DNA from: Chloroflexota bacterium
GTDB lineage: Bacteria; Chloroflexota; Anaerolineae; J102
Direction: 5' to 3'
Length of the DNA: 13,285 nt
Assembly: GCA_003353825.1 (NCBI GenBank)
Contig: PIVW01000111.1
Coordinates: 1 to 13,285, forward strand
Part shown: positions 1 through 12,267 of the stretch, in pieces
Position numbering within the stretch: the stretch's first letter is position 1
Layout: every line of letters starts with the position of its first letter
The notes under the pieces: model-generated
The model's input: the letters and a program-made list of their open reading frames with translations, nothing else
Told to the model about the DNA's origin: nothing
The model's database searches: none
Translations under genes and position numbers: made by a program

Positions 1-82
1 CTCCTTTCTGAAAATGATATCCGGCTGTATCGATTATGGACCAGCCAGAGGATAATAGCGCCATTCTACGACCCACCCTGAA

Positions 83-150
83 AGATGTCAACCGAGCGCA
101 CATCTTGGGGCGACCGACCTAAGTCGACCGACCTAGGTCGCTCGACATCT
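83..150 (-). repeat. Composite inverted/direct repeat downstream of the broken galT; possible terminator
   Basis: The outer arms AGATGTC (83-89) and GACATCT (144-150), plus GAGCG (94-98) and CGCTC (139-143), can pair to a 12-bp stem with a 4-nt bulge. The enclosed part holds two 14-bp direct repeats differing at one base (111-124 and 125-138) and a perfect 12-bp palindrome CGACCTAGGTCG (129-140). Read on the minus strand, the stem starts about 15 nt after the galT stop and is followed by only three T residues, so it could end galT transcription, but it is not a classic intrinsic terminator. A small REP-like element is the alternative. Confidence 0.45.
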
Positions 151-165
151 GTGGTATGCTGCAGA

Positions 166-986
166 TCAGTTAATACCTCCGGCGAAATCCCTTAAAAAAG
201 CTGCGCTTTCTTCGGGTAACGTTGAGTTGATAAACATGCCCGTGCCAATTTCAAACCCGGCGTTGGTCGAGGTGCGGGGGACAACCGAAACATACCGGTG
301 TAAGTATTCCCTCCCGCGGTCTCGCAAGGGGCTGGTTCGCAACACATAGTTGTCGGGTGGATCATTGAGCCCCCGGTGTAAAAAAGACAAGACCTTGTGC
401 AAACAGTCGCTTACCGCGGCAATATCTTCCTCCTCTGCTTCGAGAAAATCAGATATATGCTGCCTGGGCAGTATCCAAATATGAAATGGGCTATTGGCTG
501 CGTAAAGTACAAATGCCACAGCCCTGTCGTTTTGAGTGATGATCCGTCCGCCACTACGAAATTCATCATTCATCATCAGGCAATGGGCGCACTCCCCCAC
601 ATCGTCAAAGTAGCGTCGAGCTTCTTCCATGCGCGCTCGCTTTCTGTAGGGTACAACTGGCCTTCTACAATGACTTCGTGATAACCCACCCCGCTCATAC
701 GGCGTTTGACACCCTGAAGTACGCGTTGGCGATCCCCATTTAGATCCAGCGCCGGGTATTTGTTTCGCAAGATACGAATGTCCCAGGCCTCCTGTTTCGG
801 CAGGCGTAGGAGTTCGTGTTCATCCCGGCCATCATTTCCCGGACTAAATGGACATCCCGCATCATAGGATGGCAAATCAAGCGGCAATGCAGGCTCTTTC
901 ACCGAGAAAGACCTGGGACGCTGCGCGCGCTCTGTGCTGATTATCACCCACTGTTTGGGCACAACGTTTTGGCGTAAGTGGGGCAT
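166..986 (-). pseudogene. Galactose-1-phosphate uridylyltransferase-like gene, broken by internal deletion and frameshift
   Basis: GalT moves UMP between UDP-glucose and galactose-1-phosphate (Leloir pathway). The first part, read from the ATG at 986, runs through QWVIISTERAQRP, CPFSPGND, RNKYPAL and HEVIVE (about residues 10-108). It then leaves frame and stops near 576. The second part, open in another frame through about 660 to the stop at 166, reads VVPYRKRARMEEARRYFDD, GECAHC, then an HIT-like half with AGFEIGTG. In intact members HEVIVE is followed by about 70-80 residues, including a zinc-ligand His and the HPHxQ catalytic loop, before the VVP segment. That block is absent, and the join lies near 655-665. 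The usual CPFC zinc pair also reads CPFS. A one-base frameshift or programmed frameshifting cannot explain the missing catalytic block. The start is backed by a promoter at 1009-1037. Confidence 0.8.
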
Positions 987-1008
987 CGTTGCCTTGACTC
1001 CTGACCAC

Positions 1009-1037
1009 AGTATAACATGATTTGCACATTCGGCCAA
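1009..1037 (-). promoter_or_regulatory. Sigma-70-type promoter for the broken galT
   Basis: On the minus strand a -35 box TTGGCC (1032-1037) and a -10 box TATACT (1009-1014) are separated by exactly 17 nt. The -10 matches the consensus at five of six positions and the -35 at four. Transcription would begin near 1002, about 16 nt before the ATG at 986, with AGGAG/AAGG purine tracts just upstream of that ATG. The promoter is intact although the gene is not. Confidence 0.55.
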
Positions 1038-1320
1038 TAGGGTATTTTTTTGAACGAGATGATTGATTTTATAAACTGCTTGAATTTATGGCTTATGAGC
1101 CGTTGGCTGTCAGTCCACCTTAGTTTAGATACGCCTAGCAATTGGGCAGAAAGCAGTGATCACTGGTATCTTGAATAATATGGGTATGACCAGTTTGTTC
1201 ACTGCAAATGACCTGACCTGTGTCCACCCACCCCTAGGATATAGACGCTCTTGATGGCTTGTAACGTTGCCGTCACCTGACGTCGCCAACGCGTATACAA
1301 CATACAGCTTTACATACTAA
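1038..1320. other. Intergenic stretch between divergent genes, no gene seen
   Basis: About 340 nt separate the galT start (986) from the NACHT gene start. Short open frames here show no recognisable protein, and no tRNA-like fold or strong hairpin is evident. A plus-strand promoter for the NACHT gene should lie here. I see AT-rich hexamers such as TATAAA (1070-1075), but none with a convincing -35 partner at proper spacing. Confidence 0.4.
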
Positions 1321-1327
1321 AGGGGCA

Positions 1328-4300
1328 ATGATGATGGAACCTATCACCGCTACTATTCTAGCTGCGGCCCTGGGAAAGGGGCTACACGATGTTGGCAAAT
1401 TCGTCCTGGAAACGTGGGGGCCAATCGTAGCACGACAAGCGCAGGAAAAGGGTCTAGTTGAACCGGCGGTCGAACCTGTACGCAAGGTCGTGCAACGGCG
1501 GGCCACGCGCCCACAACGGTCTCGTGAGTTGGAAAAAGCGATGGAAAGGGCGCTGGCTGCTGCCGGAGCTCCCAGTGATGATGACACCGATCTGGATCGC
1601 TGGCTAAAGGGTGTCGGTCTGGATAGACTGACGGCCAGACAAAATGAGGCGTTGCGGCGTCAGTTCGCCAGGGCTGTGGTGGGGTTCGTCGATGCGGAGG
1701 CCGATCCTCCCCAAGAACTGATGGTGGCTCTGGCCTGGCCCCGGCCTCAGCGCCAACAATTGGCGGTGCTACTGACAACATTTCGCCTCGAACTCTACAA
1801 CCTTGAAGAGTGGCGGCCCCTGCTCGAATACGCCAATGAAACCGCCAAACTGGGTTTGCTCAAGAAGATGAATGCGGCCTTTGCCCGGCTGGATGAAGTC
1901 TTTGTGGAGACCGAGCAAGGAGAGGCGCTGCGGGTGGTCGTGGTCGAGCAGGGCTTGAGTGCGGGACGAGCTTCGGTCATAGAACAACGTTATCGAGCAG
2001 ATGTCGTGCGCGATCTGCGCATGCATGATTTTCGCGGCATTGTCCAGATCAAACGCCCCGTTCGCCTGCCCCTGGCCGACATCTACGTGGAATTGGGTTT
2101 GCTTAGCCTGAACAGCCATGAGGAGCAACGGCGTATCCAGGAGCGGATGTTACGCCTAAATGAGGAGGAACGTCTGGCACAAGAAGAACAGCGGCTGCGT
2201 GATCGGGTCACAGATGCATTGGCTCGCTCACAGCGGCTTGTCGTGTTAGGTGAACCTGGTTCTGGTAAAACCACCTCATTGCGTTTCATCGCCCTGATGC
2301 TGGCATATGGCTATGGCGCTGCTCGTCTGGGCTTCAGTACACCCTATATCCCTGTGCTGGTGCGCATGGCCGACTATGCTCGTGTTCTGGAAACACGGCC
2401 GGCATTGGCGCTTGATAATTTTCTGCTGGATGTCATTGCTCAGCAATATGCCAGTGACCCACAGTTGAGCGACTTTTTGCGCCTGGCACTGGATCAAGGC
2501 GCCTGCATGGTACTGTTGGATGGGCTGGATGAAGTAGGTGACGATCCGGTGCGCGGGCGTTCGCTGCGAACTCGAGTAGTTCAACAAGTCGACAGGTTCG
2601 CCAACCGCTGGTGCGATGATCGCAACAACAGGGTACTTGTCAGCAGCCGCATCGAAGGTTATTGGGATGAAGCACTGCGAGGTTTCGATCATGTGCAATT
2701 GAGCCCTCTACAACCGCCGGATGAGGTACGAGATCTCTTGTTGCGTTGGTACACTGCCTATGAACAGGTACAAGATACAGAACTTCCATTCGACATCGCT
2801 TACCAGCGGGCTCAGAGTAGTGTTGATGAACTATTGCCCAGAGCCATGGCATGGCCCAGCGTTCGCCGTCTCGCTACCAACCCTCTGTTGCTGACCATCC
2901 TGGCCCTTATTCATGAGACCTTAGGTCGATTGCCCAATCGGCGCATTAAACTCTACGAGATCGCTGCCCAAACCTTGATCGAATCATGGCGGCAAGCGCA
3001 AGTTGGCATGCCCAGCCAACTCCTGACCGAATTAGAAGAAGAGACTATTATCCGAGTCATGGCGCCTCTTGCATATTGGTTGCATGCGGAGCATCCTGGC
3101 GGCACTGCCTCTTTAGAAGAATGGCGCACCAGATTGATAGAGGTATTGGTGGAGCCTGAAGGTTTCGAAGAAAGCGAAGCCGGGAAGATCGCCGGACGGT
3201 TTCTTCACCACGCCCGCTATGAGACAGGCTTGCTGGCCGAGCGAGGTTTGGGCCAGTTCGGCTTCTTCCACCTCACGTTTGAGGAATACCTGACGGCAAG
3301 AGAGATCGCCAGACAACGAGAACACAAACGCCGGCAGATGTTACGCACTCACTGGGAGGATCCCCGTTGGCATGAGGTCATTCTTCTGGCTGCCGGCCAA
3401 CTAGGTATTGTCGAGACCAGGCAAGATGATGTCAGCCAGTATATTTTGGATCTGTTACAGATGGAGGCTGAGGATAAGCAAAATAAGGGACGACAGGTGG
3501 TACTGGCAGGTCGGGCGGTAGTCGATATCGGTCCCCGTAGCATCAATCCCAAGGCTAAACAGTGGCTGACAGAGGCCTTGTGTGAAACCATGCAGGATAT
3601 GGACCCCACTTCAAAAGGGCCCTATAAACAACCTCAGATTGAGATTCGCACGCGTTTCGATGCCGGTGTTGCACTTGACGAACTAGGTTGGTTACCGGCT
3701 GATTTGAATGCTTGGTTGAAAGTGGGGGGCAAACGTGCTGATGGGAATAAGAAAGAGGGCTTCTTAGCCATGAAGTATCCAGTGACCAATGCTCAATTCG
3801 AGCGTTTTATCCTGGCAGGGGGGTATGAGAACCCGGCGTGGTGGAGCGATCTCGAACAGGCCAGAAATCTCAGGGAAACATTCAAACATCCCGAATATTG
3901 GCATTCTCCCCAGTTTGGCAGAGAGCGTCGCGGCTTCCCTGTTGTAGGCATTACCTGGTACGAAGCCGAAGCTTACAGCAACTGGCTCAGCGATGTGCTG
4001 CGTCGGGCCCGCTCTGAGGATGTCGATTTGGCTTCTGAGGACAAAGCCTTGGTGGCCGAACTCTTGGCACACCATGTGGAGAGTGTCCGCTTGCCCACAC
4101 TGCAGGAATGGCAGAGGATGGCCGGAGGAACAGAGGTCAAAGATCGCTATCCCTGGGATTCTCCGGATGGTCTAGCGACGACCCGAGAGGAAGCTTTATT
4201 AGCTCGAGCCAACATCAGAGATTCCGGTATTCGCACCACTTCACCGGTTGCTCTGTATCCTCTTGGAAAAAGCCGACCTTATGGTCTTATGGATATGGCC

Positions 4301-4486
4301 GGGAACGTTTGGGAGTGGACTCTAACCCAAGAGCAAGATGTGTCTGCTGCCCGTGTGTTGTGTGGCGGCTCGTGGTCCCTCCCTCCGCACTTCGCTCGCG
4401 TGTCGGTGCACAACTGGAACCCCCGCCACAACTCGAACTACAACGTAGGCTGTCGTTTGGTTTCCCCCATCGTTTCTGGTTTCTGA
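1328..4486 (+). CDS. NACHT (STAND) ATPase fused to an FGE/C-type-lectin-like DGR target domain
   Basis: This is a 1052-residue cytoplasmic signalling-type ATPase whose C-terminus is the variable protein of the DGR. Residues 1 to about 150 are an unrecognised, mainly helical N-terminus with no visible catalytic effector motif, followed by a charged helix near 265-300. The NACHT core has Walker A GEPGSGKTT (308-316), Walker B LLDGLDE (396-402), sensor-like VLVSSR (436-441), an NPLLLTILALIH helix (518-529) and FHLTFEEYLTA (647-657). From about 801 comes a formylglycine-generating-enzyme-like domain with MKYPVTNAQFERF, RLPTLQEWQRMA, GNVWEW (992-997) and CGGSW (1012-1016). The catalytic-cysteine segment of true FGE is replaced here by the diversified stretch, so a binding rather than enzymatic role is inferred. 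Three ATGs (1328, 1331, 1334) follow AGGGG (1321-1325), and 1334 has the best spacing. Twelve codons between 1017 and 1040 differ from the template. The likely role is a sensor in immunity or self-recognition. Confidence 0.9.
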   Translation: MMMEPITATILAAALGKGLHDVGKFVLETWGPIVARQAQEKGLVEPAVEPVRKVVQRRATRPQRSRELEKAMERALAAAGAPSDDDTDLDRWLKGVGLDRLTARQNEALRRQFARAVVGFVDAEADPPQELMVALAWPRPQRQQLAVLLTTFRLELYNLEEWRPLLEYANETAKLGLLKKMNAAFARLDEVFVETEQGEALRVVVVEQGLSAGRASVIEQRYRADVVRDLRMHDFRGIVQIKRPVRLPLADIYVELGLLSLNSHEEQRRIQERMLRLNEEERLAQEEQRLRDRVTDALARSQRLVVLGEPGSGKTTSLRFIALMLAYGYGAARLGFSTPYIPVLVRMADYARVLETRPALALDNFLLDVIAQQYASDPQLSDFLRLALDQGACMVLLDGLDEVGDDPVRGRSLRTRVVQQVDRFANRWCDDRNNRVLVSSRIEGYWDEALRGFDHVQLSPLQPPDEVRDLLLRWYTAYEQVQDTELPFDIAYQRAQSSVDELLPRAMAWPSVRRLATNPLLLTILALIHETLGRLPNRRIKLYEIAAQTLIESWRQAQVGMPSQLLTELEEETIIRVMAPLAYWLHAEHPGGTASLEEWRTRLIEVLVEPEGFEESEAGKIAGRFLHHARYETGLLAERGLGQFGFFHLTFEEYLTAREIARQREHKRRQMLRTHWEDPRWHEVILLAAGQLGIVETRQDDVSQYILDLLQMEAEDKQNKGRQVVLAGRAVVDIGPRSINPKAKQWLTEALCETMQDMDPTSKGPYKQPQIEIRTRFDAGVALDELGWLPADLNAWLKVGGKRADGNKKEGFLAMKYPVTNAQFERFILAGGYENPAWWSDLEQARNLRETFKHPEYWHSPQFGRERRGFPVVGITWYEAEAYSNWLSDVLRRARSEDVDLASEDKALVAELLAHHVESVRLPTLQEWQRMAGGTEVKDRYPWDSPDGLATTREEALLARANIRDSGIRTTSPVALYPLGKSRPYGLMDMAGNVWEWTLTQEQDVSAARVLCGGSWSLPPHFARVSVHNWNPRHNSNYNVGCRLVSPIVSGF
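4349..4466 (+). repeat. DGR variable repeat (VR) at the 3' end of the NACHT-FGE gene
   Basis: These 118 bp align without gaps to the template repeat at 6047-6164 with 101 identities and 17 mismatches. Every mismatch sits at a template adenine (9 A-to-C, 7 A-to-T, 1 A-to-G); none sits at C, G or T. The first 27 and last 19 positions are identical and hold no adenine in the template. The last 19 positions (4448-4466) are the candidate initiation-of-mutagenic-homology site. The region encodes residues 1008-1047. The changed residues are 1017-1022, 1027, 1030, 1032, 1034, 1038 and 1040. All twelve codon changes alter the amino acid. Confidence 0.97.
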
Positions 4487-4511
4487 TTTTCTGGATTCTG
4501 ATCTGGGGGGT

Positions 4512-4531
4512 CTGGGGGGCTCGCCCCCCAG
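4512..4531 (+). promoter_or_regulatory. GC-rich hairpin/cruciform downstream of the VR
   Basis: CTGGGGGG (4512-4519) and CCCCCCAG (4524-4531) form a perfect 8-bp stem closing a 4-nt loop CTCG. It lies 45 bp after the end of the VR and before the RT start. In the Bordetella phage DGR, an 8-bp-stem, 4-nt-loop hairpin downstream of the homing site is known to promote target recognition, and this one matches in size and position class. No T-run follows on the plus strand, so a terminator is unlikely. A second TCTGGGGGG copy (4502-4510) directly precedes it and offers an alternative 5' arm. Confidence 0.6.
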
Positions 4532-4556
4532 AAAAATTCCTGATAGAATTAAACCA

Positions 4557-5612
4557 ATGAAAACATATCGTAATCTCTACTCACAAATCTACGAGTGGGA
4601 TAACTTACTCAACGCCTGGCGCAAAGCACGCAAGGGAAAGCGAGGGCGCTCACCCGCGGCAAGTTTCGAATATGATGTCGAAGCTAATCTGTTGCAACTG
4701 CAAAAAGAATTGGCAGAAAAGACTTACAAGCCAGGTGCTTATACCTCGTTCTATATTCATGAACCCAAACGCCGGCTTATCTCGGCCGCACCCTTTCGGG
4801 ATCGAGTCGTGCATCATGCCTTATGTAATATCATCGAACCTATATTCGAACGCAGTTTCATCCATGATTCCTACGCCAACCGGGTGGGAAGGGGCACCCA
4901 CAGAGCATTGGATCGGGCCCAATACTACTCACGACGTTTCCGCTACGTATTGCAAATGGACATCCGTCAGTTTTTCCCCAGCATCGACCATCGCCTGCTT
5001 CAAAGTATCTTGGCAGGTAAGATCGCCGATCCCGGCGTGTTGGCACTTATCGACTCTATCGTCGCCAGTGGCGACAGTGTTTTTGGGGAAAGTTATGACA
5101 TGCAGTGGTTTCCCGGTGATGACTTGTTAGCAGCGATTCGACCAAGAGGGTTACCTATCGGCAATCTCACCAGTCAATTCTGGGCAAACTGCTACCTTAA
5201 TCCTGTCGACCATTTCATAAAGCGGGAACTGAAGTGTAAAGGTTACGTCCGCTACGTAGATGACCTGCTTCTCTTTGCCGACGACAAACCTGGCCTTTGG
5301 CAGTTCGATGATGCGTTAGTAGAAAAGCTTGCAGATCTGCGATTGGCTGTTCATCCTGGTGCTCATCCTCGGCCTGTCTCGGAGGGTATCCCCTTCCTTG
5401 GATTTATCATTTTTCCCACACACCGCCGTCTCAAACGTCGTAAAGTGGTTCATTTCCGACGTCGCTTGAAAACACAGGTACATCAGCACCGCTCTGGTGA
5501 ACTCTCCCGTGAAAAGCTAGATGCGTCGATTCAGGGGTGGATCAATCATGCCCGTTTTGGCGACACCTGGGGTTTGCGTCGTGCAGTATTAAACGATATC
5601 CTCCTCCCTTGA
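4557..5612 (+). CDS. DGR-type reverse transcriptase
   Basis: This 351-residue protein copies the TR transcript into adenine-mutagenised cDNA that replaces the VR. RT motifs appear in order: PKRRLISAAPFRDRVVHHAL (70-89), the catalytic MDIRQFFPSIDH (134-145, D135), IGNLTSQ (201-207), YVRYVDD (230-236, catalytic D235/D236) and GIPFLGFIIF (277-286). The SQ-containing motif 4, where many retroviral or group II RTs have QG, is typical of DGR enzymes. No maturase, endonuclease or RNase H domain follows, which fits the usual 300-400 residues of the family. It starts 70 nt after the NACHT-FGE stop, in the same orientation, with no clear Shine-Dalgarno, so cotranscription is likely. A group II intron RT or retron RT is excluded by the motif pattern together with the adjacent TR/VR pair. 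Confidence 0.95.
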   Translation: MKTYRNLYSQIYEWDNLLNAWRKARKGKRGRSPAASFEYDVEANLLQLQKELAEKTYKPGAYTSFYIHEPKRRLISAAPFRDRVVHHALCNIIEPIFERSFIHDSYANRVGRGTHRALDRAQYYSRRFRYVLQMDIRQFFPSIDHRLLQSILAGKIADPGVLALIDSIVASGDSVFGESYDMQWFPGDDLLAAIRPRGLPIGNLTSQFWANCYLNPVDHFIKRELKCKGYVRYVDDLLLFADDKPGLWQFDDALVEKLADLRLAVHPGAHPRPVSEGIPFLGFIIFPTHRRLKRRKVVHFRRRLKTQVHQHRSGELSREKLDASIQGWINHARFGDTWGLRRAVLNDILLP

Positions 5613-5649
5613 AATGTCACAGTTGATGCTGCGTATCTGAACATAACTT

Positions 5650-5988
5650 ATGCAAGAATCTCCCATTTTTAGTAAAACCTACGACTTACTTCTCTGGTTA
5701 CTCCCAACCACGACAAAGTTTCCCCGTGAGCATCGCTTTGTGCTGGCCAAAGTGGTTCAAGAGACAGCGTTACGTTTCCAGGAGATGTTGATTGAGGCAG
5801 CACAAGGTCAAGGTAAGACCACGAATAGGGCGCTTGCCAGGGCTGATCTCGAATTGGCGAAACTACGATTTTATCTGCGCTTATGTGGTGATTTGCAGAT
5901 CCTGAAACCGGGTCAGTATCACCATTCAGCAAAAATGGTCACCGAGATAGGACGATTGCTGGGTGGCTGGAGGAGATCATCGATCTAG
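5650..5988 (+). CDS. Avd-like DGR accessory protein (four-helix bundle)
   Basis: This small basic 112-residue protein lies between the RT and the template repeat. It resembles the Avd accessory family: FPREHRF (24-30) opens a long helix (about 28-52), followed by a second long helix with ALARADLELAKLRFYLRL (61-78) and a C-terminal GRLLGGW (101-107). Family members form barrel-shaped pentamers of four-helix subunits that bind the RT and nucleic acid and are needed for mutagenic retrohoming. Its start is 37 nt after the RT stop, with no strong ribosome binding site, suggesting cotranscription. The length is at the short end of the family's usual range. Its position right after a DGR RT and 58 nt before the TR is the strongest support. 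A generic 23S rRNA-intervening-sequence four-helix protein is the alternative. Confidence 0.85.
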   Translation: MQESPIFSKTYDLLLWLLPTTTKFPREHRFVLAKVVQETALRFQEMLIEAAQGQGKTTNRALARADLELAKLRFYLRLCGDLQILKPGQYHHSAKMVTEIGRLLGGWRRSSI

Positions 5989-6046
5989 ATGTATCAGATG
6001 TGGCAGATTCCTCTGTCCTCTCGATCATAGGAGCAGGCCAATAGGA

Positions 6047-6164
6047 GCCCGTGTGTTGTGTGGCGGCTCGTGGAACAACAATCAGAACAACGCTCGCGTG
6101 TCGGAGCACAACAGGAACAACCGCAACAACTCGAACAACAACATAGGCTGTCGTTTGGTTTCCC
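6047..6164 (+). repeat. DGR template repeat (TR), core of a noncoding RNA
   Basis: This is the 118-bp donor copy for the VR at 4349-4466, on the same strand and downstream of RT and Avd. It is loaded with AAC codons in the target frame: the central part would encode GGSWNNNQNNARVSEHN followed by RNNRNNSNNNIG. Mutating the adenines of AAC can give many residues but no stop codon. The first 27 and last 19 bases have no adenine, so the conserved GGSW and GCRLV scaffold is protected. The last 19 bases (6146-6164) are the IMH* equivalent, and beyond them TR and VR diverge after a few bases. The open frame across this segment is a by-product and probably not a protein. Confidence 0.96.
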
Positions 6165-6330
6165 ACATTTTTCCCTACCGGCAATACTTCGGGTCAATAT
6201 GACGCGGGTCGAGGTAAAAATGGCGTGGCCTGATCCTGGCCTGCGCTGGCTGACAGCGCAGGGCGAATACAGAAATACCCTGTCCTCTGTGGTAATCGGG
6301 TTTATGCTCGATGAAGCTTAGGGCAGGGTA
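6165..6330 (+). ncRNA. Probable structured 3' part of the DGR template RNA
   Basis: This noncoding stretch between the TR and the convergent oxidoreductase gene holds three inverted repeats. CATTTTT (6166-6172) pairs with AAAAATG (6216-6222), with ACC/GGT continuing inward after a bulge. CCTGCGCTG (6240-6248) pairs with CAGCGCAGG (6254-6262) around a 5-nt loop. TACCCTGTCCT (6276-6286) nearly pairs with AGGGCAGGGTA (6320-6330). In the Bordetella phage DGR, RNA downstream of the TR is needed for cDNA priming and RT-Avd binding. Equivalence here is inferred from position and structure only. None of the stems has a good T-run, so the RNA end is unclear. Confidence 0.4.
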
Positions 6331-6357
6331 AAGTATTGAATGCCAGGCGCTGCATCA

Positions 6358-7365
6358 TCACACCGCAACAGGAAGCCCGTCACTCTCCAAAGAACGCTGC
6401 GCCGCCTCGAGCACACGCACCACCCGCAAGCCATTGGCGCCATCAGTCTGAGGGCGACTGCCCGTCTGGATCGCTCGCACAAAATCTTCGCACTCCATTC
6501 TCAGGGGCTCCAACAAGGGCAATTTGGGGATGGCGATATCGCCCGAGTGCAGGCGATACTGGTATTCGCCATATTGCGGGTCGGTGGCTCGAATCGCCCC
6601 TTTGTCATACACCTTGACCTTGCCCTCCGCCGCCAGATCATCATAGATGATCATTTTTTCGCTACCCACAACGGTCAACCGGCGCACCTTGCTGGGATCC
6701 AACCAGGAGGCGTGAACGTGGGCCATGATACCGCCGGGGAAGTGGAGCGTCAGAAAAATCACATCTTCAACCTGGCCGTTCAGGTACTTTGCCCCACGTG
6801 CGCTCACACGCTCGGGCATTTGACCAAGCAGGTAAAGATAGATGGAGATATCGTGTGGCGCGATGCTCCACAGAACGTTGATATCTGTCTGGATGCGCCC
6901 CAGGTTGACGCGAGTGGAATACAGATAGTAGGTCTCGCCAATGGCATGCTTATCCAGCAGCGCCTTGATGTGGCGAACGGCCGGGACGTATTCGAACACA
7001 TGCCCAACCATGAGTACTCGCGCGCGCGCTGCTGCTAACTCGACCAGTTCTTCTGCCTCGTCCACCGTCATCGCCAGAGGTTTTTCGACGAGTACATGCT
7101 TGTCCGCCTGCAACGCCGCCACAGCCAGTGGATAATGGCTGTGAGCAGGGGTGGCAATGGCGACGGCTTCGATATTACTGTCGATCAGCGCTTCTCCGCT
7201 CTCGAAAAAGGTTGTGGCGCGGTACAGGTCTTTTGCCTTTTGCAGACGGGTAGGGCTGGCATCGCTGATGGCGCTAAGATCACAATTGGGGATAGCATGC
7301 AGATTCCGGGCTAGATTAGGCCCCCAATAGCCAAAGCCTATAAGGCCGATACGAGTTTGATTCAT
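6358..7365 (-). CDS. Gfo/Idh/MocA-family NAD(P)-dependent sugar oxidoreductase
   Basis: This 335-residue cytoplasmic dehydrogenase has full length for the family. The N-terminal Rossmann fold shows GFGYWG (10-15), the EKP motif (94-96, VLVEKPLA) whose lysine is the usual catalytic residue, and a C-terminal alpha/beta domain with APHDISIYL (169-177) carrying the His-Asp pair typical of the active site. The GYWGPN start resembles members acting on nucleotide sugars, such as UDP-N-acetylglucosamine/uronate 3-dehydrogenases and inositol-type dehydrogenases. The substrate cannot be fixed from sequence. It is the last gene of the leftward run, 109 nt after the membrane protein stop, with no clear Shine-Dalgarno. 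With the upstream GT2 and GT-C-like proteins it suggests sugar-nucleotide processing for surface glycans. It converges on the DGR TR. Confidence 0.85.
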   Translation of the reverse strand: MNQTRIGLIGFGYWGPNLARNLHAIPNCDLSAISDASPTRLQKAKDLYRATTFFESGEALIDSNIEAVAIATPAHSHYPLAVAALQADKHVLVEKPLAMTVDEAEELVELAAARARVLMVGHVFEYVPAVRHIKALLDKHAIGETYYLYSTRVNLGRIQTDINVLWSIAPHDISIYLYLLGQMPERVSARGAKYLNGQVEDVIFLTLHFPGGIMAHVHASWLDPSKVRRLTVVGSEKMIIYDDLAAEGKVKVYDKGAIRATDPQYGEYQYRLHSGDIAIPKLPLLEPLRMECEDFVRAIQTGSRPQTDGANGLRVVRVLEAAQRSLESDGLPVAV

Positions 7366-7440
7366 GAGTTATAGGGTCGAACGTGTTGAGGGATGATGAG
7401 ATATGTCACAAGGTTGGGTGTGATGATATGATTGGGTTGT

Positions 7441-7468
7441 GGCAGGTGGCAGGTGGCAGGTGGCAGGT
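7441..7468. repeat. Four perfect tandem copies of a 7-bp unit
   Basis: GGCAGGT is repeated four times without interruption, ending 7 bp before the stop codon of the membrane protein gene, inside the 109-bp gap to the oxidoreductase. It is a heptameric minisatellite and probably varies in copy number. No coding role is apparent. Confidence 0.9.
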
Positions 7469-7474
7469 GTGCGC

Positions 7475-10246
7475 TCATTCTGGCTGTAATTGCCAGGTCA
7501 ATTCAACGAGTGCGAAGGTTGGATCTGCTTCGGTGATGCCATCGCCGAGCGTTACGGTGACAGGCCAGAGGTCGGAGGTGAAGTCCTTAGCAGATCCGGG
7601 TTGGGCGCTCTTTACGCCCACAAAGGCGTGGGCACGGCGTGTGTGGCCGCGGATGTCGGATTGTACACCAATGCTGCTCAGGGCGTCGATGGCTTCTTGT
7701 TGCAGATTGAGGGCGGCGGCATCGCGCACGGCCCCGGCCAGGGTCGTTCCCACTGGCAGGGCGTCGATCCAGGCAGCCATACGCGCGCTTTCACCATCAA
7801 GAGTAGGGTCATGCGTGTCGAAAACCGCGGCGGAGAGGACTTGACTGGCGGTCCCGTCAAGCGCCACAAGGTTGTAGCCGCGCTGGTTGGGGCTGAAGTC
7901 GATACCATCTACAAAGATATGGGCAAAATCGCCGCTGTCCTTGCCTGCGCTACGCACGACGATGCCACTGGCGAAGGGCACATCGGAGGGAACGAAGTCG
8001 TTGTCGGAATGGATTGCCAGGCGCTGAGGGAAGCCATCGGCACTGGGAGGCAGTGACAGGGCGCATGAGTTGATGTCAAAGACCAGGTGGCAGGGAGGCA
8101 GGATTCGGCCATCAAGACTGAAGGTGAGGGTTTGATCACCAGGAGAGAAAAGACTCAGCTCAACGAGGGCAGGGCGAGTGGTAGCGGGCAGAATGAGGGT
8201 GGGGTCAGCACGCGTGGCCCACACGGCTGACCTATCTCCTAACTGGCTGACGACTCCCCAGCCTTGGTCGAGATAGGTTTGCAATTCGGGTGCATCGGGC
8301 AGCAGGTCCACGCGGTTACGCTCCTCTGGCCAGCGCCCTTCGTAACGGGCGACGCCCCCCTGCTCCTCCATCTTGTGCAAGGGGAAGAGTTCCAGTAGCT
8401 TCTCCTCGAATCCATGTGGAACTTTGTCCTTGTGCAAGGTGACAATGTGGATGTTGTAGATGCGCAGAAGGTCGGGCGCCAGGGCTTGGGCGCGAGCGAA
8501 GTCATCGGGCGGGACATCACGGCCATCCTGCAAGGCTGCCAGCACGCCGATGACGGGATGCTCCATGAAGTACTGGAATTTCTGTTCAGGGTTGCGACTG
8601 GTATTGCCGCCCAGCCGCGGTTTGGCGTGGGCAGCCTGATACCATTGCGTGTACATGATAATGGTGTCGGCTTTGCCAAAAACATTGAAGCCATTACGCC
8701 AGCCAATGGGCAGATCGAGCACCGCTCCGGGCCTGTCATCGGCCACCACGGCGTCGTAAGCCGGGGGAAGGCGAAAATCAGAGAGGGGCAGGGGTGCGGA
8801 AACATGTTCAAAGAGCACAATAGCCGCCAAAGCAGCGACGAGCCACTTTCTGCGGGTCGGACGCACATGGCGAAACAAGGCAAGTACACCCAATGCAGCC
8901 AGGACACCGGCGCCCAGCAGGATTACGATGCTATAACGACTGGGGTAGCGGTTGGCCTGAAAAAAGGGGATTTTTAAGAGTAAGGGGAACAAGCCAGGGA
9001 TTTCTGTCTCGTATCCAGCGATGCGAAGGGCCGGGCCCAAAGAGACCAACAAGAAAAAACCGGTCAGGAGGGCGATAGCCCAAACCCAGAGCTTGCGGTG
9101 ATGAACCCAGATACCATACCCGGCCAAAACCATGACACTGAAGCCCAAATAGAGGTGCTGTCCCTTATTTACCATGAACTGCGAACCGTCGGCGCTCACC
9201 CTGGAATTATCGGCCAGGTTACGAATGATGTCGCCAAACAGAGGATGCAACTGTGTGGGCAACAGAAATCCGAGCAGATCCACAGAGAAGATGTCTGAGA
9301 AACCACCTCCCTCGACCAGAAACTCCGCATTAGCCAGCATATCGGGCAGCATGTTTGCCAGATATGGTAATAGACCGATCACGAACATGACTGCAGCGAT
9401 GGCGGCTGCTCGAAATACGCGCCAGGCCGCAGGTCGATACCTCGCCCGGTAGAACGCCATCAGCACGGTACCGATCACCGTCAAACCAATTAGAAGCACC
9501 GCAAAGGTACCGTACGTTAATTCTGCCCAGGTCTGGAAAAGCAGGAAAAGCCCCATCATCATACCGTTTCGCCATCGCCAAGGGGATTGGAAACTGCGCG
9601 CCAGGTAGAATGCGACAAAGGGCAGCCATTGTGAGGATGCGATATTGAACTGGCCGAGAGCTACATAGAACAGTTTGGCCGAAGCGAAAGCGTAGATGAG
9701 CGCGGTAATGAGGGCGGCTAGCCGGAAGTCGGAGGTCGGAGGTCGGGAGACGGAGGTCAGAGGTCTGAGGTCAGAGCGATGCCCTGAGCTTGTCGAAGGG
9801 GTCAGAACGTTGCCCTTAGCCTGGCGTTGGCGCTGGGGGTGAGCGCCATGGTTCGATGCCAGGAGTTCTAGTGTGAGAAGATAAGCGCCGAAGCCCCCGA
9901 TGATGAAGCTGCTGAGCAGGATCAGGTTGCTTGTCAGGATCAACGAGACTGCACTCTGCAGGGGGATGCTGAGGGCGCCGTTGAGCAGGGAGAGTGTGTA
10001 GAAGGCAAGGTTAATACTGATGGGATAGAACATACTATCCCCATCAAAAGGATTGTGTATCAGACCTTCCACACCCGCTCGATCCACCCAACTGTATTTC
10101 GCCCACCACAGATTCCAGGCCAGGGCGGGATCATCGATGCCGTCGCCGGGTACGTGTGTGAATATATTTGGCAGTAGCGGCCAGGTGAGCAGCAGGCTCA
10201 ATAGGGCCAGCAGCAGAAGAAGGCGCCAGGGTCGGGTACGTGTCAT
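7475..10246 (-). CDS. Large multi-pass membrane protein, GT-C glycosyltransferase-like
   Basis: From the ATG at 10246 the protein has 923 residues. It begins MTRTRPW followed by a long hydrophobic segment, then an extracytoplasmic loop with VPGDGIDDPALAWNLWW. Acidic residues in this first loop are typical of GT-C lipid-phosphosugar-dependent transferases. About ten more hydrophobic segments run to roughly residue 480 (for example GQFNIASSQWLPF after a LAALITALIYAF helix). A hydrophilic C-terminal half of more than 400 residues follows, probably outside the membrane. An ATG at 10306 would add 20 residues and overlap the ComF gene. I prefer 10246 because it gives a positive-inside signal anchor and no overlap, though neither start has a clear Shine-Dalgarno. 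An in-frame repeat insertion lies at about residues 131-175. The substrate is unknown; YfhO-like membrane proteins are the alternative assignment. Confidence 0.65.
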   Translation of the reverse strand: MTRTRPWRLLLLLALLSLLLTWPLLPNIFTHVPGDGIDDPALAWNLWWAKYSWVDRAGVEGLIHNPFDGDSMFYPISINLAFYTLSLLNGALSIPLQSAVSLILTSNLILLSSFIIGGFGAYLLTLELLASNHGAHPQRQRQAKGNVLTPSTSSGHRSDLRPLTSVSRPPTSDFRLAALITALIYAFASAKLFYVALGQFNIASSQWLPFVAFYLARSFQSPWRWRNGMMMGLFLLFQTWAELTYGTFAVLLIGLTVIGTVLMAFYRARYRPAAWRVFRAAAIAAVMFVIGLLPYLANMLPDMLANAEFLVEGGGFSDIFSVDLLGFLLPTQLHPLFGDIIRNLADNSRVSADGSQFMVNKGQHLYLGFSVMVLAGYGIWVHHRKLWVWAIALLTGFFLLVSLGPALRIAGYETEIPGLFPLLLKIPFFQANRYPSRYSIVILLGAGVLAALGVLALFRHVRPTRRKWLVAALAAIVLFEHVSAPLPLSDFRLPPAYDAVVADDRPGAVLDLPIGWRNGFNVFGKADTIIMYTQWYQAAHAKPRLGGNTSRNPEQKFQYFMEHPVIGVLAALQDGRDVPPDDFARAQALAPDLLRIYNIHIVTLHKDKVPHGFEEKLLELFPLHKMEEQGGVARYEGRWPEERNRVDLLPDAPELQTYLDQGWGVVSQLGDRSAVWATRADPTLILPATTRPALVELSLFSPGDQTLTFSLDGRILPPCHLVFDINSCALSLPPSADGFPQRLAIHSDNDFVPSDVPFASGIVVRSAGKDSGDFAHIFVDGIDFSPNQRGYNLVALDGTASQVLSAAVFDTHDPTLDGESARMAAWIDALPVGTTLAGAVRDAAALNLQQEAIDALSSIGVQSDIRGHTRRAHAFVGVKSAQPGSAKDFTSDLWPVTVTLGDGITEADPTFALVELTWQLQPE
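9722..9856 (-). repeat. In-frame repeat-derived insertion in the membrane protein gene
   Basis: About 45 residues rich in S, T, P and R interrupt two hydrophobic segments of the membrane protein. At DNA level the stretch consists of seven degenerate 7-bp units of the type GGAGGTC (9724-9772) followed by the 19-bp imperfect palindrome CCCTGAGCTTGTCGAAGGG (9782-9800). The latter resembles a short REP-like sequence seen in many bacterial genomes, commonly translated as STSSG or FDKLR. The reading frame stays open throughout. Confidence 0.75.
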
Positions 10247-10277
10247 GCGAAAAGTGTCGGATGTCAGGCGCTGGCTG

Positions 10278-11066
10278 TCAAGTTTTAGTTGCCTGGCGAT
10301 TGCCATCCCAAGCCATAAAAACTTCGTCCGGGTTCAGGCCATGTTGCCAGGGTTCAGGCTCCATTGGCGAGCGTGCGCGGGCCACCGTCAGCGCCCAGAT
10401 ATCGCCGGCGCCGGCCGCTCGTAAGGCGTCGGCACAGGCCCACAAGGTCGCGCCTGTCGTGCAGACATCGTCGATGAGCAAAAGGGTTTCGCCGTGAAGG
10501 AGATCGGGCGCGAGGGCTGTAAATGCCTGGTGCACATTCTCCATCCGCTCCTTTCGGTTAAGCTGCACCTGGGGTGGTGTGTGTCGTCTGCGACTGATGA
10601 GGTCGGTGCGCACGGCGATGTTGCAGGCTTTGCCTGTGTATTCCGCCAGAAAATCGCTCTGATTGTATCCCCTGAATTCGAGCCGTTCGGCATGAAGCGG
10701 CACAGGGACGATGGCATCGAACTGCAATGGGTGCGCATCGAGATAGGCCACGAGATAACCTGCCAGGGGGCGCGCCAGTTGTGTGAGACCACGGTATTTT
10801 AGCCCGTGAATGGCGAATGCAACAGAACCACCATAGAAAACGGCGCCGCGGATACCGCGCAAGCTTCTCGGCCCCGATTGTTTACACGACAAGCAGGTGC
10901 CGCGTTCAGTCGTAGGTTGTCCACAGCGCACACAAATGTCATCACCTACGAACTGAGCCTCTGATCGACAGTCATGGCAATAGGCCGAACCGATGCGCCG
11001 GCAATAAATGCATCGCGCCGGGAATACCAGATCAATAAGAGAATGCAGAACTTTTTGAGCAACCAC
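10278..11066 (-). CDS. ComF-family phosphoribosyltransferase-like protein
   Basis: This 262-residue protein has an N-terminal double zinc-ribbon region with Cys pairs C19/C22, C30/C33, C45/C48 and C58/C61. A type I phosphoribosyltransferase domain follows, with VPVPLHAERLEFRGYNQS (120-137) and the PRPP-binding loop LLIDDVCTTGAT (196-207). ComF proteins are linked to DNA uptake in competent bacteria through single-stranded DNA handling, and a nucleobase-salvage role has also been suggested. The C-terminus has about 30 residues beyond the usual fold. The start lies 88 nt after the Flp-like pilin stop, and the end is 31 nt before the preferred membrane protein start, so the genes are probably cotranscribed. 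The nearby pilin-like protein fits a competence or surface-appendage theme, but this link is inference. Confidence 0.88.
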   Translation of the reverse strand: MVAQKVLHSLIDLVFPARCIYCRRIGSAYCHDCRSEAQFVGDDICVRCGQPTTERGTCLSCKQSGPRSLRGIRGAVFYGGSVAFAIHGLKYRGLTQLARPLAGYLVAYLDAHPLQFDAIVPVPLHAERLEFRGYNQSDFLAEYTGKACNIAVRTDLISRRRHTPPQVQLNRKERMENVHQAFTALAPDLLHGETLLLIDDVCTTGATLWACADALRAAGAGDIWALTVARARSPMEPEPWQHGLNPDEVFMAWDGNRQATKT

Positions 11067-11125
11067 ACTTTCACCTTATGGTTATCGGGCTCAATGGGAT
11101 CTCATGTGGTCCTGGAAACGCACCT

Positions 11126-11143
11126 GTTGCGTGTTGCGTGTTG
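11126..11143. repeat. Short heptameric tandem repeat, about 2.5 copies
   Basis: GTTGCGT occurs twice in tandem followed by GTTG, in the gap between the pilin-like gene and comF. It is the same unit length as the arrays at 7441-7468 and 9724-9772 but a different sequence. Confidence 0.6.
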
Positions 11144-11154
11144 TTTGGCCAGAC

Positions 11155-11328
11155 CTACCCTGCTTGTTCTGGGAACCACGTTCGCAAGAGATCGAATACA
11201 AACGCTCTCAGATCGTCACCAAGAATGAGTAGAATGGCAAGTATGATGATGGCGATGAGCAACAGAATCAGAGCGTATTCGATCACGCTTTGGCCGGCTT
11301 CAGATGGGTTAGGTGTTTGAGGTGTCAT
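11155..11328 (-). CDS. Flp/type IVb pilin-like small membrane protein
   Basis: This 57-residue gene reads MTPQTPNPSEAGQSVIEYAL and continues with an uninterrupted hydrophobic helix (about residues 19-36, rich in I and L) ending in GDDLRAF, then a short amphipathic tail. The pattern of a short leader, Q-S-V-I-E-Y and a hydrophobic helix matches class III (Flp/type IVb) prepilins. In these a prepilin peptidase cuts before the segment carrying Glu at position +5 and Tyr at +6; here cleavage after G12 would put E17 at +5 and Y18 at +6. It starts 13 nt after the GT2 stop and lies 88 nt before comF, all on the minus strand, which suggests one operon. No Tad assembly genes are visible in the window, so it may be a lone pseudopilin or an unrelated single-pass protein. 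Confidence 0.72.
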   Translation of the reverse strand: MTPQTPNPSEAGQSVIEYALILLLIAIIILAILLILGDDLRAFVFDLLRTWFPEQAG

Positions 11329-11341
11329 AAAAACCGTGAGA

Positions 11342-12103
11342 TCAGGAATCGGTCGAAGCGGGATGGGTGCTGGGCTGATGAGTATTGAGGACGGCGGGTG
11401 GTTTACTTGTCATAAGACGCAATACCGTCATCGCCGCTTTAAAGATCTCATTACGAGAGATCTTTGAGGCGCCACGCCTGCGGTCGGTAAAGACGATAGG
11501 TGATTCAGCCACCCGAAAACCGGAGTTCTGAACCCGCCACAGCATCTCGATAAGGTAAGAGTAACCATCCGCACGAATCGCATGTGGATCAACCGTGCGT
11601 AACACATCTGCCCGATAACATCGGAATCCTGCCGTACAGTCGTGTGCCTGTAATCCCAAGAGGGTGCGGGCAAATAGATTAGCGCCATAGCTAAGCGCTC
11701 GACGATGCCACCCCCACAATCTCACACCACCTCCGGGCACATAGCGAGAACCGATACCCAGGTCGTGTTCATCCACCAATGCCACTAACGAGGGGATGTA
11801 GCGGGGGTTGTGCGAGAAATCAGCATCCATGGTGATGATGCGTTCGTATCCGTGTTCAAGGGCATAGGCGAAACCGACCGTATACGCGGTTCCCAGTCCC
11901 AGTTTTCCAGGCCGATGCAGGACATGTACACGTTCATCAGTTTGAGCGAGATGATCGGCTACATCGCCTGTACCATCTGGAGAATTGTCATCTACAACGA
12001 GGATATGCAGACCCAGATCGAGACTGTGCAGGTTTTCGACAAGGGGTGCGAGATTCTCGGCTTCGTTGTAGGTGGGGATAATGGTAATGGTTTTCAAGAT
12101 CAT
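11342..12103 (-). CDS. Polyprenyl-phosphate mannose (dolichyl-phosphate mannose) synthase-like GT2
   Basis: From the ATG at 12103 this is a 253-residue GT-A glycosyltransferase of family GT2 that would transfer a hexose, typically mannose from GDP-mannose, to a polyprenyl phosphate on the cytoplasmic face. Visible motifs are IIPTYNEAENL near the start, VVDDNSPDGT, GKLGLGTAY, MDADFSHNP (the DxD-type metal and nucleotide site), GSRYVPGG, CTAGFRCYR and DRRRGASKIS. It lacks the C-terminal membrane helices found in some relatives and ends in a Pro/Ser/Thr-rich tail. The frame is open to 12214, but a promoter at 12186-12214 and the start of homology at MILKTITIIPTYNE favour 12103. It leads the leftward operon. 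Its lipid-linked sugar would be a natural donor for the GT-C-like protein downstream (inference). Confidence 0.9.
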   Translation of the reverse strand: MILKTITIIPTYNEAENLAPLVENLHSLDLGLHILVVDDNSPDGTGDVADHLAQTDERVHVLHRPGKLGLGTAYTVGFAYALEHGYERIITMDADFSHNPRYIPSLVALVDEHDLGIGSRYVPGGGVRLWGWHRRALSYGANLFARTLLGLQAHDCTAGFRCYRADVLRTVDPHAIRADGYSYLIEMLWRVQNSGFRVAESPIVFTDRRRGASKISRNEIFKAAMTVLRLMTSKPPAVLNTHQPSTHPASTDS

Positions 12104-12185
12104 GAACCGTCGACTGTTCGAGATCGCCGACACAGGTAGAAATGCATTGGCAGACGCGTTATGGTGATTACGCCTCAACCCCGGC

Positions 12186-12214
12186 ATTCTAGCATAGGGC
12201 AGATTTGCGCCCAA
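12186..12214 (-). promoter_or_regulatory. Sigma-70-type promoter of the leftward operon
   Basis: On the minus strand a -35 TTGGGC (12209-12214) and a -10 TAGAAT (12186-12191, five of six consensus matches) are spaced by 17 nt. Transcription would start near 12179, about 76 nt before the GT2 start at 12103. This placement makes the longer GT2 start at 12214 unlikely. Confidence 0.55.
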
Positions 12215-12267
12215 GTTCCTGACGGCGCCCGAATCCTTTGGGATATTGAATTACACCTGAAAACCTG

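Follow-up and report, generated by a model that had tools for sequence, protein, structure and literature searches.

A complete diversity-generating retroelement with a NACHT protein as its target in a Chloroflexota bacterium

The diversity-generating retroelement (DGR) of phage BPP-1 consists of a reverse transcriptase (RT), the accessory protein Avd, a template repeat (TR), a variable repeat (VR) at the 3' end of the target gene, a hairpin behind the VR, differences between the repeats that follow TR adenines (the adenine rule) and a structured RNA 3' of the TR (AY029185; PMC3240598 and PMC12875486, in their excerpted text), and all of these parts recur in the element described here. In its record (AY029185) the order is mtd, bbp7, TR, brt, where bbp7 is Avd by its match, and the diversified product is a phage tail protein; according to the excerpted text of PMC12875486, the spacer 3' of the TR folds, recruits RT-Avd and primes synthesis of the complementary DNA (cDNA). 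A second point of comparison is given by the clade 5D DGRs of Dore et al. (2024; PMC10907252, as excerpted), whose targets combine a single C-terminal lectin domain, a central NACHT/nSTAND module and an N-terminal extension without a named domain, and the same excerpt names filamentous chloroflexi among the hosts of clades 5A-5D.

Here we describe a 13,285-nt stretch of DNA from a Chloroflexota bacterium (contig PIVW01000111.1 of assembly GCA_003353825.1; the window hereafter), which carries a complete DGR with target, VR, hairpin, RT, Avd and TR all on the + strand. The element shows the adenine rule, an RT of the DGR clade, an Avd protein, a VR in a lectin fold and a hairpin behind the VR, and its NACHT-lectin type of target has already been published (PMC10907252). 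We consider it very likely that this DGR copies its TR into adenine-mutated cDNA that replaces the VR, continually altering the binding face of a predicted phage sensor; we infer the activity by analogy with described systems and the defence function from the architecture of the target. The target architecture is shared with clade 5D; the window holds one target, whereas two are common in clade 5D, and the excerpted description of that clade (PMC10907252) mentions neither a structured RNA nor an empty site nor joined VR-RNA loci such as those reported below.

Repeats, reverse transcriptase and accessory protein

The target gene (1328-4486, +) encodes 1052 aa and ends in the VR (4349-4470, +), which stands in register with the TR (6047-6168, +) at an offset of 1698 bases. 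An interpretation made earlier from the letters of the window alone (the sequence-only reading) had placed target, RT, Avd, TR and VR in one orientation, as the open reading frames (ORFs) and the TR/VR register now bear out, and had counted 101 matches in 118 positions with all 17 differences at TR adenines. This count was reproduced for 4349-4466, where the 17 differences fall within 32 TR adenines (hypergeometric p = 4e-12 given 17 differences, a value that is slightly flattering because the end points were partly chosen by the adenine criterion), and the register in fact reaches 122 bases, with 104 identical positions and 18 of 18 differences at the 34 TR adenines, before the first other mismatch. 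Rerun for mutable C or mutable G, the scan found no pair in the window, and for T it recovered the same pair on the opposite strand, as it necessarily must; as a positive control, the adenine scan recovered the TR/VR pair annotated for BPP-1, which differs at 17 adenines and nowhere else. The two repeats are 85% identical, as would also be expected of a plain diverged duplication. Such a duplication is nevertheless next to inconceivable, given that all 18 differences are confined to adenines of one copy and that, of 80 loci recovered with the RNA model described below, 48 (including one training contig) hold an adenine-rule pair, compared with a single one of 80 random stretches taken from these loci. 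Mutation of adenines creates a stop in no TR codon, and the TR could yield about 10^18.9 protein variants, none with a stop.

The hairpin that had been proposed behind the VR was located at 4511-4532 (+), with a 9-bp stem and a 4-base loop (TCTGGGGGG-CTCG-CCCCCCAGA). The DNA fold of 4480-4556 is moderately better than that of shuffled sequences (z -1.84; 8 of 200 shuffles as good), and a stem of at least 7 bp within 90 bases 3' of the VR was found for 11 of 27 DGR VRs versus 96 of 2200 random stretches.

The RT (4557-5612, +; 351 aa; PF00078) contains both motifs read in it at the outset, IGNLTSQ and YVDD, and in a 40-RT phylogeny it fell among the DGR RTs, which a 100/100 split separates from seven RTs that had been found with a group II model (all seven from the same class, one of the seven above the model cut-off; candidate L125 was dropped). 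Within the tree, L021 (from Chloroflexi bacterium CFX8; 70% identical) and L112 group with it at 99/96 support. Its best solved relative is 8ub7_A (expect value (E) 4e-55), from an entry that also contains a chain named Avd. Against PHROG it scores 403.7 bits with family 1423 (reverse transcriptase); among NCBIfam models group II RT/maturase comes nearest, at 129 bits, far under its cut-off of 300. The Avd-like protein (5650-5988, +; 112 aa) is recognised as such by NF033474 (99.8 bits, cut-off 80), by bAvd PF22296 (69.1 bits, cut-off 40) and by a PHROG Avd match, and it matches the solved chains 4dwl (Bbp7) and 8ub7_B (Avd). At seven other loci (L106, L108, L109, L110, L053, L028 and L257) Avd is opposite in strand to the RT; in the tree, which does not include L257, a single clade with 100/100 support unites the RTs of the first five and excludes that of L028.

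The diversified target protein

From N- to C-terminus, the target consists of a helical N-terminal domain, a NACHT NTPase, a helical middle part and a C-terminal domain with the fold of formylglycine-generating enzyme (FGE) and C-type lectins. The NACHT domain, which the sequence-only reading had called a sensor, stands by both sequence and fold (PF05729, aa 303-474, 33.6 bits, cut-off 26.7), while its role in defence is drawn from the architecture. Motif searches located Walker A, GEPGSGKT, at aa 308-315 (2249-2272, +) and Walker B, VLLDGLDE, at aa 395-402. Among solved structures, the AlphaFold2 model (mean predicted local distance difference test score, pLDDT, 90.2) matches EgtB/FGE and NLRC4 best. 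The N-terminal domain (aa 1-232; 1328-2023, +) is modelled as all-helical with a pLDDT of 86.5; a Pfam search of aa 1-291 up to E 5 gave no match, and comparison of the domain with the PDB gave no match at E <= 0.001 and no clear fold match.

FGE has a two-cysteine copper site, and the conserved cysteine pair defines the enzyme. The C-terminal domain of the target fits the Pfam FGE-sulfatase family well (PF03781, aa 808-1045, 125.6 bits), and EgtB and FGE structures are among its best matches, so a working formylglycine-generating or sulfoxide-synthase-like enzyme had to be considered. However, C1012 and C1042 are the only cysteines in aa 790-1052 and their columns mostly hold R and F in relatives, so that the conserved residues cannot form the FGE copper site, and the region is overwritten by the VR, which corresponds to aa 1008-1047 inside the FGE-sulfatase match at the 3' end of this C-type-lectin-fold gene. 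An enzymatic role is therefore highly improbable: the domain shares its fold with formylglycine-generating enzyme/SUMF1 but lacks conserved cysteines, and we read it as a binding fold, because its two cysteines are not conserved.

The N-terminus varies among relatives. TIR domains take the place of the target-like N-terminus in P0070 and P0072, and in P0039 an Mrr nuclease domain lies between a similar N-terminus and NACHT, as would be expected of a swappable output part; precomputed domains also list TIR in P0071, P0073 and P0075-P0077, with P0074 lacking it.

We also compared the diversified region across the family. The protein search passed at least 254 homologues, of which 120 were listed, with 7996 candidates sharing most words scored; the window and 67 of the listed homologues gave an alignment of 68 rows, and the 43 rows used are the window and 42 relatives with at least 55% identity. 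In 19 VR codons a TR adenine occupies the first or second base, and there the mean column entropy was 2.84 bits, compared with 0.94 bits at the other 21 VR codons, 1.22 bits in the FGE domain outside the VR and 0.79 bits in NACHT; 17 of the 19 codons vary among relatives, and aa 1028 and 1047 are conserved. At the 13 AAY codons, with the TR of the window serving as reference for all 42 relatives, 524 of 543 residues were encodable by NNY and K and M never occurred, versus 6372 of 8019 residues encodable in the FGE domain outside the VR. Family-wide variation thus falls at the codons expected from TR adenines, which would be an indirect sign of diversification in nature.

A structured RNA behind the template and the loci it leads to

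At nine loci the segments 3' of the TR have in common a CC-n-G motif, an AAATA-like stretch and a terminal stem, and most of them also a hairpin. In the window this putative scaffold RNA lies at 6232-6330 (+), its second half closed by the terminal stem, and the segment 6225-6330 folds with a z-score of -5.7. Across 12 sequences, 97.9% of cells in the terminal helix are paired, versus at most 47.9% when the helix is slid, and 11 of its 12 pairs changed on both sides, in an alignment that was fitted to the structure, which favours it; RNAalifold on the unfitted alignment of nine sequences returned 9 of 12 pairs. These alignments show that the predicted RNA structure 3' of the TR is conserved via compensatory changes. 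A covariance model (R1) built from nine sequences, the window being one of them and scoring 74.4 bits, found 12 matches at E <= 1e-5 over 85 sources. Three of them, L114, L027 and L101, lie outside the training set, and each has a DGR RT together with Avd. Many further DGR-RT loci among these sources, BPP-1 included, went unmatched.

R1 was also run on 396 genomes of this class that had been sampled evenly from a larger group; 63 of them matched at E <= 1e-4, with 89 matches in total. We analysed 80 of the 89 places, the remaining nine being L100, L102, L103, L105, L107 and L111 (training), L101, L114 and a second match inside L256; among the 80, L185 is seemingly the training contig of L021, and L211 and L194 seemingly repeat L027 and L118. 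TR, VR and RT together were found at 33 loci, TR and VR without an RT in the fetched stretch at 15, RT or Avd with no VR found at 12, a VR joined to the RNA at five and the RNA only at 15. Gene order in the 33 complete loci is VR-RT-Avd-TR-RNA, as in the window, at 21, VR-Avd-TR-RNA-RT, as in BPP-1, at eight, and different again at four. The sequence-only reading had remarked that the order target-RT-Avd-TR departs from that of the Bordetella phage; it does differ from AY029185, with TR and RNA following RT and Avd and a NACHT protein as target in place of a tail protein, but it is no peculiarity, since 21 of the 33 complete loci share it, which makes it the commonest among loci reached with R1, and a published survey lists 122 cassette patterns (PMC6642488, in its excerpted text). 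On L100 (6123-6364), one strand carries TR and RNA and the other RT, Avd and VR, so the template there would need its own transcript.

Loci lacking an RT were followed into their genomes. DGR-like RTs lie elsewhere in eight genomes with an RT-less TR/VR locus (G037, G340, G177 with a partial match, G162, G228, G058, G123 and G196), while none was found at E <= 1e-40 in G309, G032 and G279 and G238 gave a 115-residue match only, in a search that excluded G298 and G223. Loss of the RT is not certain at some of these loci, because L197, L202, L222 and L246 lie near contig ends. For Thiohalocapsa, degenerate DGR loci and action in trans have been reported (Dore et al., 2024; PMC10907252, as excerpted). 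L186, L198, L204, L214, L219, L252 and L270 hold TR, VR and RNA with the RT undetected in the stretch, and their genomes have a DGR-like RT elsewhere. The 15 RNA-only loci (L184, L190, L205 and 12 more) match R1 without RT, Avd or a local VR; L184, L190 and L244 carry a TR-like stretch rich in asparagine codons just 5' of the RNA, so their targets may lie elsewhere, and L205, which has no TR-like stretch before the RNA, may be a spurious hit.

At the five joined loci (L187, L201, L206, L221 and L273), the target ORF measures 679-1067 aa up to where the repeat motif ends; 60-99 bases separate this point from the RNA, and neither RT nor Avd was found in the fetched stretches. This is the arrangement expected from recombination between VR and TR, and these loci are possible solo scars. 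The repeat of L187 is asparagine-rich and TR-like, and the repeat is altered in the other four, of which L273 is a weak one, with an RNA match of E 2e-5 and lysines within its repeat. Published reports of joined VR-RNA loci were not found in a literature search that returned mostly unrelated papers and is a weak test. We advance tentatively, as quite conceivable, that the DGRs of this Chloroflexota class behave like long terminal repeat elements: because RT and Avd lie between the direct repeats VR and TR, recombination between these repeats would excise RT and Avd, freeze the receptor and leave a solo VR fused to the RNA. On this view solo scars would coexist with full elements and with RT-less satellites for which an RT elsewhere provides the activity, and the RNA would tag the template and let one RT serve several sensors.

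Such loci raise the question whether the element of the window is itself a DGR that is inactive now, its present VR frozen. Loss looks common among its kin: of 80 loci, 15 have a TR and a VR but no RT in the stretch fetched, and five have a single repeat joined to the RNA. Degenerate loci are also described for Thiohalocapsa (Dore et al., 2024). Against this, all ORFs of the window are intact, RT motifs included, and the 122 aligned bases hold 0 non-adenine differences, which decay would soon introduce. We therefore regard inactivity as improbable.

Absence of the cassette from a near relative and the predicted role in defence

The nearest relative compared, G001, lacks the element. Its contig C301 matches window positions 1-1048 and 6362-12244 at 93-96% identity, and 133 unrelated bases (C301 2240-2374; L153) stand in place of 1049-6361, a cassette of 5.3 kb; the cassette and target are thus present or absent as one unit. 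The loci of other relatives do not show the junction. By eye, the ends of the 133 bases resemble inverted repeats. This empty site, the structured RNA and the helical N-terminal domain of the target go beyond what the sequence-only reading had described. Among the flanking genes, a galT/HIT-type gene (166-1037, -) is split into two overlapping ORFs, its copy in G001 being a single open frame that is longer by about 180 bases, and a 943-aa ORF (7475-10306, -) has an ILEI-like C-terminal domain (PF15711).

By analogy with BPP-1, the TR and the structured RNA behind it would be transcribed together; the RNA would recruit RT and Avd and prime cDNA synthesis, during which the RT would misread A, and the cDNA would integrate next to the hairpin, at the constant 3' end of the VR. 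Judging from the NLR-like architecture, the lectin domain may bind a ligand, upon which the NACHT module would open and the protein oligomerise; the helical N-terminal domain may act as, or assemble, an effector, and the infected cell would probably be halted or killed. With bacterial NACHT/Avs STAND antiphage proteins the target shares a NACHT module with Walker A and B between an N-terminal domain and a C-terminal sensor; it differs from them in that its sensor is a lectin domain diversified by a DGR, its N-terminal domain has no named family and the model matches are weak.

Several observations weigh against this account of a diversifying phage sensor. Neither Pfam nor fold search recognised a known effector domain in the N-terminal domain of the target, and no separate effector gene with the same N-terminal domain was found among 7997 scored candidates sharing most words; P0121, the sole protein of 127-406 aa with this domain among those scored, resembles a piece of a split target. 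Known NACHT defence protein models in PADLOC and NCBIfam do not fit the target, PADLOC giving a weak mad8 match only (aa 290-333) and NCBIfam EruA 21.2 bits against a cut-off of 1000, and the flanking genes look metabolic and glycan-type, not like a defence island. On the side of the retroelement, 16 of the 27 DGR VRs have no stem of at least 7 bp 3' of the VR, and a single VR allele is known for the source organism.

The metabolic and glycan-type flanks and the lack of a recognised effector would also suit a diversified protein that serves another kind of recognition, of self and non-self or of a surface or signal ligand, and Vallota-Eastman et al. argued for signal transduction in the case of cyanobacterial DGR targets, as related in the excerpted text of Dore et al. 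(2024; PMC10907252). The same text, however, reads NACHT-lectin targets as defence too, and NACHT with TIR exchange and Mrr insertion in relatives is the plan of antiphage STAND proteins. Recognition outside phage defence is thus rather unlikely in our view, though the least unlikely of the alternatives considered here, and we favour a predicted phage sensor under diversification.

The window adds a clean, complete case of a bacterium apparently diversifying an NLR-like sensor by programmed mutation. R1 is a means of finding DGR templates independently of the RT, including those at the 15 of 80 loci with no RT in the fetched stretch, and the joined loci suggest a route by which diversification may be stopped while a chosen receptor is kept.

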